From an uncultured Mycoplasma sp. (GTDB lineage: Bacteria; Bacillota_I; Bacilli_A; Mycoplasmatales; Mycoplasmoidaceae), in NCBI GenBank assembly GCA_947648205.1, contig CANSNC010000001.1, positions 62,001 to 126,000 of the forward strand: 64,000 nt of DNA, read 5' to 3'. The notes beneath the pieces were generated by a model. The model saw nothing but the letters and a program-made list of their open reading frames with translations, searched no databases and was not told the origin of the DNA. Shown piece after piece: positions 39,680-46,886 of the stretch (position 1 is the first letter of the stretch; every line of letters begins with the position of its first letter). Made by a program: the position numbers and the translations under genes.

Positions 39680-41230
39680 ATGAAAAAATTTTATGTTACT
39701 ACTCCAATATTTTATCCTTCTGGGAAACCACATTTGGGACATGCATTTTCTGCTTTATATGCATCTTTACTTGCTGAATATAAAAGATTATTAGGGTATG
39801 ATGTGTACTTTGCAACTGGTACTGATGAACATGGTCAAAAAATAGAAGAGACAGCTAAATCAAAAAACATAACACCACAAGAATTAGTTGATAATAATTC
39901 CGATGTATTTAAGAAATTATGAAATAAGATGGGAATAAGATATGATTACTTTATTAGAACTACTAATTCATGTCATAAAAAAGCTGTCCAAGAAACTTTT
40001 GATTTTTTATTAAAAAAAGGTTTTATTTATTTGGGCAATTGAAGAGGTTTGTATTGTATTTCATGTGAGGAAAACTATACTGAAAATTCTGCAATAAAAA
40101 AGGACTCTGAATTTTTTTGTGAACATGGACATAAACTAGTTTCAAAGAATGAAGAATCTTATTTTTTAAAAATAAAATCATTTAATGAATGAATAATAAA
40201 TATGTTATCTAATAATAAAGATTTTATATATCCTCATAACAGGAGTAAAGAATTGATAAATAATTTTTTATCTGATGAAAAATTAGAAGATTTATCTATT
40301 ACAAGAACAACATTTGAGTGAGGTATAAAAACTTTAGTTAATAGTAAGCATGTTATTTATGTATGACTTGATGCTTTGTTAAATTATATAACCTTATTGG
40401 GATATAAATCTGATGATGATAGTAATTTTAAAAAATATTGAATATCTGATGATTGTGAAAAAGTACATTTAATAGGAAAAGAAATAACTAGATTCCACTG
40501 CATTTACTGACCTATAATTTTAAAAATGTTGGATTTACCTTTACCAAATAAAATAATATCTCATGGTTGAATTATTACAAACACTGGAAAAATGTCCAAA
40601 TCATTAGGTAATGTTATAGATCCAAATGATATTATTGATAATTATGGCAAAGATGCATTTAGATATTTTTTGGCAAAGGAAATATCTATTAAAGATGATA
40701 GTGTTTATTCAAATGATAAATTTATAACAACATTTAATACAGATCTTGCAAATAACTATGGAAATTTAATTAATAGAACAATTGGTATGCTAAAAAAATA
40801 TAACAATAATATTGTTCCAAAATATAATGGTCCTATAACCTATAATGATTTTTTGATAGTTAAAACACAAGATGAATTTTTATCAAAAGCTAAAGAATTA
40901 ATAGATGATTTAAACATAAAAGATCTTATTGATTTAATTTGTGATTTTGAAAATAAAATAAATAATTACATAGAACAATCAAAACCATGAGATTTTTTGA
41001 AAAATAATATGAAACAAAATTTAGATAGTTTTTTATCAATTCTTGTTAATTTAATTAGAACTACAATTGCTTTTTTAAAACCTATATTAATTGATGCAAC
41101 AGATTTAGCTATTCAACAATTAAATTTCAACAAAGAAATTTTATTGATAGATTCTTTAAAAGACTTTTCCAAAGTGGACAATATAATTGTTAATGAAGCA
41201 AAACCTATTTTTATAAGAATTAATCAATAA
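39680..41230 (+). CDS. metG: Methionyl-tRNA synthetase
   Basis: Class I synthetase with the HIGH motif as HLGH (PSGKPHLGHAF near residues 14-23) and the KMSKS signature (GKMSKSLGNVIDP near residues 303-315). A UGA-Trp-rich catalytic core (LGNWRGLYCISCEENY, RFHCIYWP) is characteristic of MetRS. 516 aa is the short form: it lacks the C-terminal tRNA-binding domain found in some bacteria. AGAGG precedes the ATG. The regulator gene starts 2 nt after its stop. Confidence 0.95.
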
Positions 41231-41231
41231 A

Positions 41232-41915
41232 ATGAAAACAAATATTTTATTTATATATAATGTTTCAAAAACACTTAATGGTCTAAAGATAGAACTTGAT
41301 GATAATACTTTTATTGTTGAAGCTTGTAATAGTAGTGACAAAGAAACTGTTGATAAAAAAATTAAAAACTTTAGGCATGATATTGTTATTATTGAGGTTA
41401 CAAACAATATTGAATACATAATAAATCTAATTAAAGAAATAAGAAATAAATCTATATTAACAGATATTATTACCTATGGTCATAATGAGACTTTAGAAAA
41501 TATTCTATCTTTATATAAAAATGGGGCAAATGATTATATACAAGCTCCAATTGAACCTAAAATATTAATGTTTAAAATATATTCATTATCTCAAAAATAT
41601 GAAATTTTAAACTCAAAATATTTTAATAATTATGTAAAATATGGAGACTTTGTTGTTGATAGAGAAGCTAATATTATTTATTTAAATAATTCTCAAATAG
41701 AAATTACAAAAAAAGAATATAGAATTTTAAGATTGCTTATGAAAGCAGATGGTTATCCTGTTAATAAACAAACACTACAAAAAGAAATATGGGGTTTTGT
41801 TGATGAATCATCAAAAACAGTAGAAACAACAATTTCAGCATTAAAAAAGAAATTAAATAATGGATATATTAAAACAATTATAAAGCAAGGTTATTTTTTA
41901 GATAAAAACTATTAA
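41232..41915 (+). CDS. OmpR/PhoB-type regulator with degenerate receiver, upstream of the pst operon
   Basis: The 227-aa protein has a receiver-like N-terminus (about 1-115) and a winged-helix C-terminus (about 135-227) of the Trans_reg_C type (KKEYRILRLLMKADGYPVNKQ near 155, then TVETTISALKKKL, ending QGYFL). The receiver lacks the phosphorylation set: the paired acids after strand 1 are Tyr9-Asn10, the phospho-Asp position is Glu55, and the conserved Lys before Pro is Ala (DYIQAP). Only the Thr of the activation pair is kept (IITYGH). No histidine kinase is in the window. Glu55 could mimic a permanently phosphorylated state (inference). Its stop codon is followed by a perfect terminator, then pstS. 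A phosphate-responsive role is inferred from context. Confidence 0.9.
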   Translation: MKTNILFIYNVSKTLNGLKIELDDNTFIVEACNSSDKETVDKKIKNFRHDIVIIEVTNNIEYIINLIKEIRNKSILTDIITYGHNETLENILSLYKNGANDYIQAPIEPKILMFKIYSLSQKYEILNSKYFNNYVKYGDFVVDREANIIYLNNSQIEITKKEYRILRLLMKADGYPVNKQTLQKEIWGFVDESSKTVETTISALKKKLNNGYIKTIIKQGYFLDKNY

Positions 41916-41920
41916 TATTT

Positions 41921-41970
41921 ATTTTAACAAGGTAAAAAATATTTTTACCTTGTTAAAATATTTTTTTTAA
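41921..41970 (+). terminator. Strong terminator after the regulator
   Basis: ATTTTAACAAGGTAAAAA (41921-41938) pairs perfectly over 18 bp with TTTTTACCTTGTTAAAAT (41942-41959), loop of 3 nt, followed by a run of T. This separates the regulator from pstS. Confidence 0.95.
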
Positions 41971-42023: not shown

Positions 42024-43271
42024 ATGAATAAGTATGTGAAGTATATTTCACTTGGTATTTTTGTTGCAATACCTATAGGTTTTATTGTTGGATTTTCAAG
42101 AGCTTGAAATTCGCCTCCATCAATTACTGCAGCAGGTTCAACTGCTGTACAACCTTTATTGGCAGCACTTGGAAATTATTATGATAAAGCTGATGTAACT
42201 GTACAACCAGGAGGAAGTTCTCTTGGAATGAAAGTGGCAGCAGATGGAAGTAAAAGTTTAGGTAATGCTTCCAAAAATACATACTCATCTGTTGGTAAAG
42301 CAACAATGGAAAAAAATGGTTTTACTTGAGAAACTTGAAGGGATAATGGATTAAAAACTATAACAGTTGCATGAGATGGAATTGCTATTGTTTATAAACC
42401 AGATTCACAAAATGACCCTGTATTACAAATTAATCAAGATAATATATTAATGATATATGAATCTTTTGCAGGAATTAAAAATTATAGATTATATGATTTG
42501 TTTGTAAATCAAATAGATGTTAATAATAAAAATAATAATTTATTAAATTATCAAAATCCAATAAATTCTAGTTTTATTAAACCTTATGCTAGAACAGGGG
42601 GAGGAAATGCCTCAGGTACTGCAACATCTTTTGCAAAAGAATCAGGGTTTAATTATGATTCTAAAGATGAACAAAGGTGAAAGGAAGCCCAAGATATTTT
42701 GCTTTCTGGAAATTATGGATCCAATGTCTCTACAACAAATGAATCTAATGTTGAATCTTGAAATAGATTTAATATTGAAAATAAACCAGGATCAATGATT
42801 TATCTTTCTTTAGGATTTGTAAGTACAAATAGGGAGTTTATTGAAAAACAAGGATATAAAATTGCAAATTATTATAATCCAATATATTCACCAAATAATG
42901 TGCCTGTAATTGCTGATACAAAAAATGTTACTAATAAAACATATGGGTGATATTCACCATTAAATACAATCATAGCTACAAATTTAGCAAATAATTTAGT
43001 AAAACAATTTATTTGATGATTATATACAGATGAATATGTAAATAGAAGTGATAATGATAATCCAGGATTAATTCAAAAAATAGGTTATGCACCTTTATCA
43101 GATGAAGATAAATTAAAAATGTTTTATTTACAAAATGAAACAATAATTGATAATGAAATTAATACAAGTAATTATAAATCATATGAGGATGTATTTTTTC
43201 ATGTTACTGATATTCAAAATGGAAGTACTACATGAGAAAAAAGTAATCAATGATATGGAGTGCCAAAGTAA
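42024..43271 (+). CDS. pstS: Phosphate-binding protein PstS, membrane-anchored rather than lipoprotein
   Basis: PstS motifs are present: AAGSTAVQPLLAAL near residues 36-49, GGSSLGMKVA near 63-72 and a VGKATME near 89-95. It captures phosphate for the PstCA-B transporter. Residues about 7-24 form one uncleaved-looking hydrophobic helix (ISLGIFVAIPIGFIVGFS), and there is no cysteine where a lipobox would be, so it is probably anchored through that helix. Many UGA-Trp codons interrupt it. Start ATG 42024 follows AGGGGA. 415 aa, with the pstCA gene 5 nt downstream. Confidence 0.92.
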
Positions 43272-43276
43272 TAAAT

Positions 43277-45322
43277 ATGAATGAGCAAGTAACTATTAAA
43301 TTAAATACAAATAATGATAAACAATTTCTTAGAACAAAAATAAAAAATATAAATAATAATGTTGGTAAATATTTCAGTATGATTATTTCAACATTTGTTG
43401 GTGTTATTCTATTTGCCATTTTAGGATTTATTTTATATAAATCTATTCAAGGTTTTGAATATTATGGAATTGAGAAAATTTTATTTTCTGACAAATTTAA
43501 TATTTCAAATGGTAAAGAACAAGGAGTTTCTTTTTGGCTTCCTTTTGTATCAACTCTTCTTACTACATTAATAGCTTTATTAATTGCTGTTCCTGTAGGA
43601 GTTAAAACATCAATCTTTATTAAATTTAGGGTTGATAAAAAATATAAAAAAACGTTCAGAATATTAAGTGAAACATTAGCAGGTATACCATCTGTAATAT
43701 TTGGTTTATTTGCATCAAAATCACTTGGAGCATTATTGTCTCAAATGGGAATAAATAATTATTCAATTATTAATGCATCTATTATGCTATCTTTTATGAT
43801 TATTCCTACAATTATTGCTATGTCATTAAATGCTTTAGATTCTGTGGATAAAAATTTAATTATAAATCCAATTGCAATTGGTTCTACAAAGACAAGAGCA
43901 ATTTATAAAGTGTATAAAAAAGCAGCAAGAAATGGGATAATAGTTGCAATAATTATTGCTATGGGAAGAGCAATTGGCGAAACAATGGCTTTGTCTATGA
44001 TTTTGCAAAATGAAAACGGTTATATTGAGGGATTTAATAATGGATTATTATATTCATTAAATAGTGATTTAAAAACTGTATCAGTTGTAATAGCAACAAA
44101 TATGTTTGGTGAAAATAGCAATGAAATAACAAGATCATTATTATTTGTTTTTGGATTCATTTTATTTATATTTATAATGATATTTAATGTACTTATTTTA
44201 TATGTAACTAGACAAAAAGGAAATAGAGTTAGTAGATTAGATAAATTCATTGATAAACTATATTACTATGTTTTATTTATTCCAAGACAAATTTCAAATA
44301 TATTTGAATGATTGATGTTTAAAGAGCGTAGATCTAAAAAATTGGTGTCTCATGAAGAAATCATTGAGTATACACGTATAAGAACTACTAATTATAAATT
44401 TGCAAACTTATACACTTGATATAAATTATTTTGAGAAATATTTTCTTTCTTGTTGTGTTTAAGCATTCTTATATGAATTATTTTGGAAATATTTGTAAAA
44501 GGTTGGGTTGCATTAGGAGCAAATTCTACAACTATATTTATGTATACCAAAAACACATCAGGACAAGCTTTTTTAAATACAATATTGGTTATTTTCATAG
44601 CTATTCTAATTGGTTTACCTATTTCTTTGATTTCAGCAATTTATTTAAATGAATATTCAAAAAATAAGTATTTTAATAAGACAATTAATTTTTTCTTGGA
44701 TTCTTTGGGATCTACACCATCTATCCTATTTGGTATGTTTGGATTAATTTTTTTCATTGAAACATTGGGATGAACAAGTGATGGAGCAAAAGGATATTCA
44801 TTAATTGCTGGTTCTTTAACAATAGTTCTTGTTATATTACCAAGTTTCACAAGATCTATACAGCAAGCATTAATACAAGTACCATATGAAGTAAGAATTA
44901 ATGCTTTGGCATTAGGAAGTTCTAAATGAGAAGTAATATATAAAATTGTTTTACCTGCAGCTTTAACAGGAATAATAACAAGCACAATCTTAGCTATAGG
45001 TAGAATTCTTAGTGAAACTGCTCCACTATATTTAACAGCTGGATTAACAAGTTCTACTGAAACAGCTTTAGATAGACCAGGTCAAACTTTGACTACAAGA
45101 ATTTATGCTCAGTTATATAACACTAATATAACTGAAGGAATAAACATAATGTATGAAATTGCTTTTATAACACTATTGTTAGTGTTGAGTTTAATTTTAA
45201 TTGGTTATGTCTTAATTCCAAATAAGAAAGAAATAAATAAATGATTTATAAATAAATTTCAATTCATTAAATATTTTTTCAAAAAAGAAATGTTATTAAA
45301 AAACAAGGAGATTTATGAGTAA
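43277..45322 (+). CDS. pstC-pstA: Fused phosphate permease PstC-PstA (681 aa)
   Basis: The N-terminal half (about residues 30-330) has PstC-like helices with AIGETMALSMILQN near 234-247. After a joint, the C-terminal half (about 365-665) has PstA features: EVPYEVRINALALGSSKWEVIYKIVLPAA-type loop near 535 (begin Gln-Val-Pro-Tyr) and ILAIGRILSETAPLYLTAG near 572-590. The two coupling motifs in one chain mean the permease would fold as a pseudo-heterodimer. Fused pst permeases occur in other mycoplasmas. It starts at ATG 43277 and its end overlaps pstB by 8 nt. Confidence 0.93.
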
Positions 45323-46220
45323 TTTAAAATTAACAACTCAGGAAATTAAGTTGCCTAGTGATAAACACTCTTCACCAAAAAAAGTTTCATTTTTTAAAAA
45401 ACTTTTTTCAAATAAGCATAATGTTACTATTAATCAAGAAATTAAAGAAGATTTTGATGAATCAAATTCATTTGAAATAAGAGACTTTAATTTTTGATAC
45501 AATAATGGTTATAAACAAGCTTTATTTAATATAAATTTGAATATAAAAAAAAATAAGGTAATTTCTTTTATAGGACCTAGTGGGTGTGGTAAATCTACTT
45601 TTTTAAGAATGTTAAATAGAATGAATGATTTAATTGATAATGTAAAATTTGAGGGAGATATTTTTTTTAATAAAATAAATATTTATTCAAAAAAAACACA
45701 TGTTTTAGAATTAAGAAGTGATGTAGGCATGGTTTTTCAAAAACCTACACCATTTCCAATGTCTATTTACGAAAATGTTGCATATGGTTTAAGAAGTAAG
45801 GGAATAAAAAATAAGAAAACTATAGATCAGATAGTTGAAAAGTCTTTAAAAGATGCAGCATTATGAGATGAAATTAAAGATAATTTAGATGATTCAGCTT
45901 TGGGATTATCTGGCGGACAACAACAAAGATTATGTATTGCAAGAGCAATTGCTATAGAACCAAAAGTTTTACTAATGGATGAACCAACTTCTGCATTAGA
46001 TCCTATAGCAACATCTAAAATTGAAGAATTAGTTTTATCTTTAAAGAAAAAGTATACAATAGTTATTGTCACACATTCTATGGCACAAGCACAAAGAATT
46101 AGTGATTATACTGCATTCTTTTTTGAAGGAAAACTAATTGAATCAGGACCAACAAGAAAAATATTTATGAAACCAAAAGAACAAAGAACAAGAGATTATG
46201 TAAATGGAAGGATTGGGTAA
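45315..46220 (+). CDS. pstB: Phosphate ABC transporter ATPase PstB
   Basis: Walker [10 protein letters not shown] near residues 85-93, Q-loop [16 protein letters not shown] near 140-155, signature [16 protein letters not shown] near 199-214, and Walker [13 protein letters not shown] near 219-230. The PstB-specific [15 protein letters not shown] segment fixes specificity. An N-terminal extension of about 50 residues precedes the usual start and is charged and disordered. 301 aa. AAGGAG precedes ATG 45315. UGA-Trp codons at 45495-45497 and 45864-45866. Confidence 0.96.
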
Positions 46221-46223
46221 AAT

Positions 46224-46886
46224 ATGGCTATTAATTTTTTAAGTCTTGAAAAATCAGAACTGGAATTGAATGATAATTTCTTATCATTAGTTTCATTGTG
46301 TAGAAAAATGTACATTAAATTAGCAACAATGGTTGATAATAAAATTGTTACTCAAGAATCTCTTGATAAAATGGAAGAATATCATAATAGAGTAAATGAA
46401 TCTCGAAGAGATATTAGAGATGATTGTATTTGAATAATTTCAAAAGACCAACCAAGAGCAAGTCATTTAAGATATATTATTGCTGTGCTTTATTCTATAA
46501 AAGATATTGAAAGAATGTCTGATTATGCCTATACAATTTCAAGAATTTTAAAAAAAGAAAAAATCACAACTGTAATGGTGAATAGATTAAGTAGTTTATT
46601 GGGAAAATCCATTGATTTTTATGATTGTATAATTGATGTTCTTTCAAAAGATGATTTGAGTGAATATGAGGAAAAAATACAATCAATGTTTAATAGTTTT
46701 AGAAGTGATTATAAAAATTTTTTAACAAATTCTATTGAATTATTTTCTAAAACTTTAAGCCCAAGTGATGTTTCACAGTTTATTTCATATTATTTTAATT
46801 TTTCAATTATTATTAAATACATTGATAGAATTGTTGATCATTGTCTATCAATTTATAAAAATTTTGTTTCTGTTAAAAATAGATAA
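46224..46886 (+). CDS. phoU: Phosphate transport regulator PhoU
   Basis: 220-aa all-helical protein with two three-helix bundles. The PhoU-type second half shows Ser-His-Leu-Arg-Tyr-Ile-Ile-Ala...Ile-Lys-Asp-Ile-Glu-Arg-Met-Ser-Asp-Tyr-Ala-like helix (about 80-102), and Tyr-Ile-Asp-Arg-Ile-Val-Asp-His near 205. PhoU normally dampens Pst transport and, in bacteria with PhoR, inhibits PhoB phosphorylation. Here no PhoR is present. Starts 3 nt after pstB. Confidence 0.9.

Follow-up and report, generated by a model that had tools for sequence, protein, structure and literature searches.

The window analysed here is a stretch of 64,000 nucleotides from the genome of an uncultured Mycoplasma sp. 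(G000:C1:62001-126000; 999,747 bases in 28 contigs, 93.26% complete), in which TGA encodes tryptophan in many genes. It carries an open reading frame for an orphan regulator of the OmpR/PhoB type, read identically under codes 4 and 11. Directly downstream of this gene, on the same strand, lie pstS, pstC and pstA fused into one gene, pstB and phoU (Table 1), and the first-pass annotation of the window, which had set the regulator beside a pst-phoU operon, was right in this respect. The pstC-pstA fusion, a 690-aa frame, also occurs in the orthologous loci described below and in G068, G149 and G151 (genomes are cited by our own numbers).

Table 1. Features of the regulator locus (positions in the window)
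Feature	Position	Strand	Remarks
metG, directly upstream of the regulator gene	39680..41230	+	1 base between metG stop and regulator start codon
Orphan OmpR/PhoB-type regulator gene	41232..41915	+	227 aa; receiver degenerate, winged helix intact
Pseudo-receiver domain, residues 1-122	41232..41597	+	alignment with intact receivers; Response_reg 21.3 bits, under cut-off
Interdomain linker, residues 123-135	41598..41636	+	6/13 columns invariant in five orthologs
Winged-helix DNA-binding domain, residues 136-227, and stop codon	41637..41915	+	Trans_reg_C 57.3 bits
Terminator-like 19-bp hairpin followed by T run, between regulator gene and pstS	41920..41960	+	RNA z-score -6.5
pstS, phosphate-binding protein	42024..43271	+	PBP_like_2 34.6 bits; TIGR02136 57.7 bits, under its cut-off
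Fused pstC-pstA permease	43250..45322	+	690 aa; TIGR02138 and TIGR00974 above cut-off
pstB ATPase	45315..46220	+	TIGR00972 above cut-off
phoU	46224..46886	+	PF01895 60.9 bits, above cut-off; TIGR02135 91.1 bits, under cut-off

Receiver residues and protein class

The DNA-binding half of the protein is intact, as had been proposed. Its Trans_reg_C score exceeds the Pfam cut-off (26.2 bits), and in a structure model this half is predicted to match the effector domains of VicR/YycF (Z 15.3, 95 residues, 1.7 A). That model was our second; the first, built with no relatives, was poor (pLDDT 48.5), and the second, which rested on a three-row alignment with visible misalignment in about the first 35 residues, reached a mean pLDDT of 68.6. 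Block means were 77-90 in the DNA-binding domain (residues 151-227), values fell below 50 at residues 10-39 and 123-133, and the first 40 residues of the receiver were poor, so that use of the model is limited to the DNA-binding domain and the latter half of the receiver. In a whole-length Foldseek search CosR-DNA complexes came out on top, and RitR and HP1043 were also matched, together with many canonical regulators; the large whole-chain rmsd of these matches results from a domain arrangement that is not reliably modelled.

The Response_reg score stays below its Pfam cut-off (30.2 bits) in the window's protein and reaches 42.4 bits, above the cut-off, in the ortholog of G016. We aligned the receiver with two intact regulators of named bacteria, from Flavihumibacter and Enterococcus alcedinis, and with intact relatives from the same order. 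A scan of genome contigs returned these two intact regulators only, and scans of viral contigs for relatives found none. In the alignment the catalytic residues D, D, D, T and K are replaced by Tyr9, Asn10, Glu55, Gly83 and Ala105. The earlier description of Tyr9-Asn10 in place of the acidic pair, Glu55 at the phosphorylation site and Ala for the active-site Lys is thus confirmed, with the conserved Thr/Ser lost as well; judged by these residues, the receiver is catalytically dead and unable to work as a canonical receiver. We also considered Glu55 as a fixed phosphate mimic that would explain the whole, and rejected it as a general explanation; it is weakened because the site is Ser in three of the five orthologs and because the Lys and Thr/Ser partners of Glu55 are absent from the window's protein.

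With regard to class, full-length response-regulator models match the protein with E-values down to 1e-20 but remain under their cut-offs, and the PhoB equivalog model TIGR02154 gives 64.1 bits against a cut-off of 296 bits. As a family name, the 'PhoB' in the label of the first-pass annotation does not hold. The protein shares with PhoB/PhoP the pst-phoU neighbourhood, which is kept in all five orthologs, and lacks the phosphorylatable Asp with its acidic pair, the Thr/Ser and the Lys. It has these features of an atypical response regulator: replaced phosphotransfer residues, an intact OmpR-type winged helix and no partner kinase detected in the 93%-complete genome. A missing partner kinase is common, not universal, among such regulators. 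The protein probably belongs to this known class of 'atypical' regulators that work without phosphorylation.

Histidine kinase searches

We searched genome-wide with the PF02518 (HATPase_c) and HisKA profiles and with the kinase of G061 as a query. Neither profile revealed a histidine kinase in the window, where the first-pass annotation had reported none, or in the whole 93%-complete genome, the search it had recommended. PF02518 matched three places in this genome, namely GyrB and ParE (both named from reading the sequence) and a HATPase_c_3 family ATPase. Across 14 genomes, 35 such places comprised 28 GyrB/ParE proteins (27 assigned through a conserved motif and one by reading its ORF), six HATPase_c_3 ATPases and a single kinase, which adjoins pst in G061. 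The G061 kinase as query recovered only itself in 10 genomes. HisKA matched none of the 320 genomes of the order, and since this profile also misses the existing G061 kinase, its silence is by itself weak evidence. Given that the genome is 93% complete, the case for the absence of a kinase is strong but not absolute. Receiver matches were confined to nine of the 320 genomes (five above cut-off; G040 and G299 are included), and together with the HisKA result this agrees with the earlier statement that Mollicutes rarely keep two-component regulators. The HATPase_c_3 ATPase of the window's genome is a 593-aa protein encoded outside the window (L004:1441-3222, G000:C1), and each of five other genus members that we read has one.

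It is conceivable, and in our estimation very improbable, that the regulator is an ordinary two-component protein and that its kinase either sits in a region absent from the assembly or has diverged beyond detection. Apart from the incompleteness of the genome, the case of G060 gives this idea some substance: a 378-aa ORF behind the regulator of that genome, which is likely its kinase, was seen only through a weak match to one NCBIfam kinase model (19.8 bits) and escaped both Pfam (E 0.1) and the G061 kinase query. However, a hidden kinase would meet an active site that cannot act as a canonical receiver. Moreover, G008, which is a single contig of 1,278,574 bases and carries an ortholog, likewise has no kinase among its PF02518 places.

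Relatives of the regulator in the order

With matches accepted up to E 0.001, the ortholog profile was found in 29 of the order's 320 genomes. Only matches with E below 1e-100 were taken as orthologs; these are five (the window's genome, G008, G006, G011 and G016), the same five that form the rows of the profile. The arrangement metG-regulator-pstS-pstCA-pstB-phoU is kept in order and orientation in all of them, across three genera. At the five catalytic positions the window's protein reads Y N E G A, G008 and G006 read Y D S S A, G011 reads Y K S G A and G016 reads D Q E S K. The phosphorylatable Asp is thus present in none of the five (E, S, S, S and E in the order given at the start of this paragraph), and Lys has become Ala in four. 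The ortholog of G016 branches off before the other four, which group together with support 98/96, and it has degenerated least; it keeps Asp9, Ser81 and Lys105 alongside Glu53, an intermediate state. Its position and its residues suggest that the Asp was lost first and the Lys later.

The replacement of Asp by Ser in three of the five orthologs raises the question of whether the receiver answers another modification, either Ser/Thr phosphorylation or oxidation of one cysteine, here Cys32, as in RitR or HP1021. We regard this as decidedly unlikely. A gene of the Pkinase family is present in each of the five ortholog genomes, the proteins of the window, G008 and G006 have no cysteine other than Cys32, and atypical regulators controlled through a cysteine or phosphorylated on Ser/Thr are described in the available part of a recent review (PMC12632262). 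On the other hand, the site is Glu, not Ser, in the window's protein, and conservation of Cys32 does not extend to G011 and G016.

Conservation is uneven along the protein. Columns invariant in the five orthologs number 9 of 17 in alpha5, 6 of 13 in the linker, 24 of 92 in the DNA-binding domain, 1 of 18 in alpha3 and 1 of 9 in beta3; beta5-alpha5 and the linker are among the best-conserved parts of the protein, and alpha5 is the best within the receiver. The charged alpha4-alpha5 pair of the Enterococcus regulator, R88 and E108, is Ile-Ile in four orthologs and Ala-Ile in G016, and the intact outgroups also vary at this first pair; Asp101 and Lys115 are conserved in all five. Going by the OmpR/PhoB literature, these positions would form the dimer contact.

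The regulator gene appears from its substitution pattern to be maintained by purifying selection and is not decaying. Between G008 and G006, dN/dS is 0.056 for the receiver (dN 0.038, dS 0.671) and 0.015 for the DNA-binding domain (dN 0.024, dS 1.58); values of 0.35-0.54 for the two domains of the window's gene against the other orthologs are unreliable, with dS near or above saturation. We give hardly any credence to the view that the gene is a relic, a response regulator drifting towards a pseudogene after loss of its kinase. The lost catalytic residues and the missing orthologs in other genus members would fit such a relic, but the substitution pattern disfavors it, the frames are open in all five orthologs and synteny has been kept over three genera. 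Among the nine other genus members searched, several of them incomplete, seven (G001-G005, G007 and G009) have PhoU and no ortholog of the regulator; it follows that a genome can have PhoU, and probably Pst as well, without the regulator.

The gap between the regulator gene and pstS contains a hairpin in the window and in three of the four other orthologs (z -4.1 in G008, -5.3 in G006 and -2.1 in G011); in the gap of G016 it is absent (z -0.3). The palindrome at 41920-41960 was considered as an operator and set aside: pairing in the orthologous hairpins is kept in part through G-U pairs (six in G008 and two in G006), which, with the T run, is more in keeping with an RNA terminator than with a palindrome in DNA. 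When the window was searched with the half-site of the palindrome, 11 matches with up to two mismatches came up where 8.4 were expected, which is no regulon signal, and inspection by eye of the sequence between the regulator gene and pstS revealed no operator-like motif. The hairpin with its T run suggests that the metG transcript probably ends after the regulator gene and that pst is probably transcribed from a separate promoter, where the regulator could work in trans.

This arrangement bears on the possibility that the regulator is constitutive and has no input, being always on, with its amount, as set by the metG operon, deciding pst expression. We hold this to be a tentative, rather doubtful proposal. 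Consistent with it are the single base between the metG stop and the regulator start codon and the terminator-like hairpin ahead of pstS in the window and three of the four other orthologs. Residue K+2 is Ile or Leu in all five orthologs, and such residues are linked to active conformations in the accessible portion of the same review (PMC12632262); this indication is weak, as Ile also occurs there in two intact outgroups, Flavihumibacter and G060. Against it, one would not normally expect a nutrient transporter to be governed by a regulator that lacks a sensor.

PF00486, the OmpR-type DNA-binding domain, is found in 34 of the 320 genomes of the order (32 above cut-off), so DNA-binding remnants of two-component systems persist in this order. 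Besides the orthologs, the pst-adjacent regulators include two outgroups that keep all five catalytic residues, G060 and G061 (with Ser for Thr in G061), and degenerate ones in G068, G149 and G151, which represent two further families and are placed differently; in G068 a GTPase gene lies between the regulator and pstS. A recognisable kinase stands behind the regulator in G061, where the intact PhoB-like gene (L035:5229-5860) is split over two frames, receiver then DNA-binding domain, although the kinase gene that follows it is whole. A midpoint-rooted tree was built from 27 rows, leaving out five f7 loci (L102, L106, L107, L109 and L113) and the split gene of G061. In it the window's group clusters with the intact regulators, and the remaining degenerate ones make up a separate set (100/99). 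This topology suggests that degeneration beside pst has occurred more than once, a suggestion made tentative by long branches and midpoint rooting.

We also observed a second orphan OmpR-type regulator in members of the genus and family (L027:6037-6759, L030:3039-3761, L033:5872-6588, L029:6738-7433, L032:2305-3021, L026:5167-5862 and L022:3718-4440). Where neighbours were scanned (L027, L022 and L030) it directly follows rpiB, the order in L027 being prfA, a methyltransferase gene (prmC-like), sua5, rpiB and then the regulator. The N-terminus of the L027 protein, the only one scanned, is not matched as a receiver by Pfam. In G001, which carries L027, the rpiB-linked gene is the sole OmpR-type match, and the two HATPase_c matches are GyrB/ParE. 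Many f7 genomes have further orphan OmpR-type proteins (L099-L114), often beside a gene for a protein of 971-982 aa.

Proposed role and known counterparts

We favor, as a reasonably probable explanation, that the protein is a dimeric transcription factor acting on pst independently of phosphorylation, derived from a former PhoB-PhoR pair that has lost its kinase. The ancestor would have been a pair of the PhoB-PhoR type beside pst; the kinase would have been lost and the receiver would have ceased to accept a phosphoryl group. The pseudo-receiver may then have become a dimerisation module, either permanent or tuned by a ligand or partner, in which the retained beta5-alpha5 and linker would support dimerisation without phosphate. 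The winged helix would bind DNA and most likely control the adjacent downstream pst operon. The earlier suggestion of a kinase-independent regulator tied to phosphate uptake is supported by this analysis: (i) all five catalytic residues are lost; (ii) no kinase was detected; (iii) the pst synteny is kept in all five orthologs; (iv) the gene is under purifying selection; and the DNA-binding domain is intact. Gene order suggests phosphate supply as the likely input and pst as the likely target. Several observations count against this explanation. The gene is co-directional with metG, and another target is conceivable; no operator was found in the gap, where the sole palindrome is terminator-like; PhoU occurs without an ortholog in seven of the nine other genus members, so pst can do without the regulator; the first 40 residues of the receiver are poorly modelled; and the genome is 93% complete.

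As to the signal, constitutive activity and another modification are sub-hypotheses that do not exclude the kinase-independent dimeric factor, and our estimate for the latter covers the statement as a whole. A third such sub-hypothesis, which we consider unlikely and which takes up PhoU or a ligand as the signal proposed in the first-pass annotation, is a Pho pathway that has become shorter through the loss of the kinase step. PhoU elsewhere communicates with PhoR. Once PhoR was gone, the Pst-PhoU complex would signal directly to the pseudo-receiver, whose surface would bind PhoU or a phosphate-related ligand that sets its activity. This end point may have been arrived at on two occasions, once in the window's family and once in other families of the order. 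In line with this, the adjacent operon ends with phoU in all five orthologs, and the receiver is under purifying selection despite accepting no phosphoryl group. However, PhoU is found in 204 of the 320 genomes of the order, most of which lack such a regulator, and there PhoU has another job.

What makes the favored dimeric factor on pst worth pursuing is that a likely input and target are suggested by gene order, with no kinase found to confuse the picture, and that intact, intermediate and fully degenerate relatives allow the loss of phosphorylation to be traced step by step. The switching of pseudo-receivers is called a mystery in the part available of a 2025 minireview (PMC12632262). As far as the accessible text of each source goes, aspartate-less receivers with OmpR-type effectors number 609, or 2% of that architecture (PMC4395418), mycoplasmas are stated to have no two-component systems (a recent mycoplasma paper, PMC9282661), and a 2006 survey counted OmpR among the families shared by the remaining Firmicutes groups but absent from its sample of Mollicutes (PMC1524751). 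The literature searched, with most subscription papers outside it, contained no report of a pst-linked regulator of this kind in Mollicutes.

PhoB/PhoP of the PhoBR/PhoPR systems resemble the window's protein in having an OmpR-type winged helix and a place beside pst-phoU, and intact examples occur in the same order (G060 and G061). The window's protein differs in that it lacks the phosphorylation site, has no detected PhoR and falls far under the PhoB equivalog cut-off. ChxR of Chlamydia trachomatis, as described in the available portion of the report, is likewise missing the phospho-acceptor Asp along with further active-site residues and has an OmpR-type winged helix, and it is reported to dimerise and activate without phosphorylation; as a difference, it is reported to bind its own promoter, and that portion describes no linkage to a phosphate transporter (PMC3960148). 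HP1043 of Helicobacter pylori and CosR of Campylobacter, to judge from the accessible parts of their literature, are also orphan OmpR-type regulators and work without phosphorylation, but they are essential regulators of other processes, with about 21-22% identity to the window's protein. RitR of Streptococcus pneumoniae, from similarly partial sources, is an aspartate-less OmpR-type regulator that controls a transporter operon, for iron uptake; it differs in using a redox switch through a linker cysteine, whereas the linker of the window's protein has no cysteine. Atypical regulators as such are well described, and what is new here is the setting, that is, a phosphate transporter, a mollicute and intermediates in relatives.
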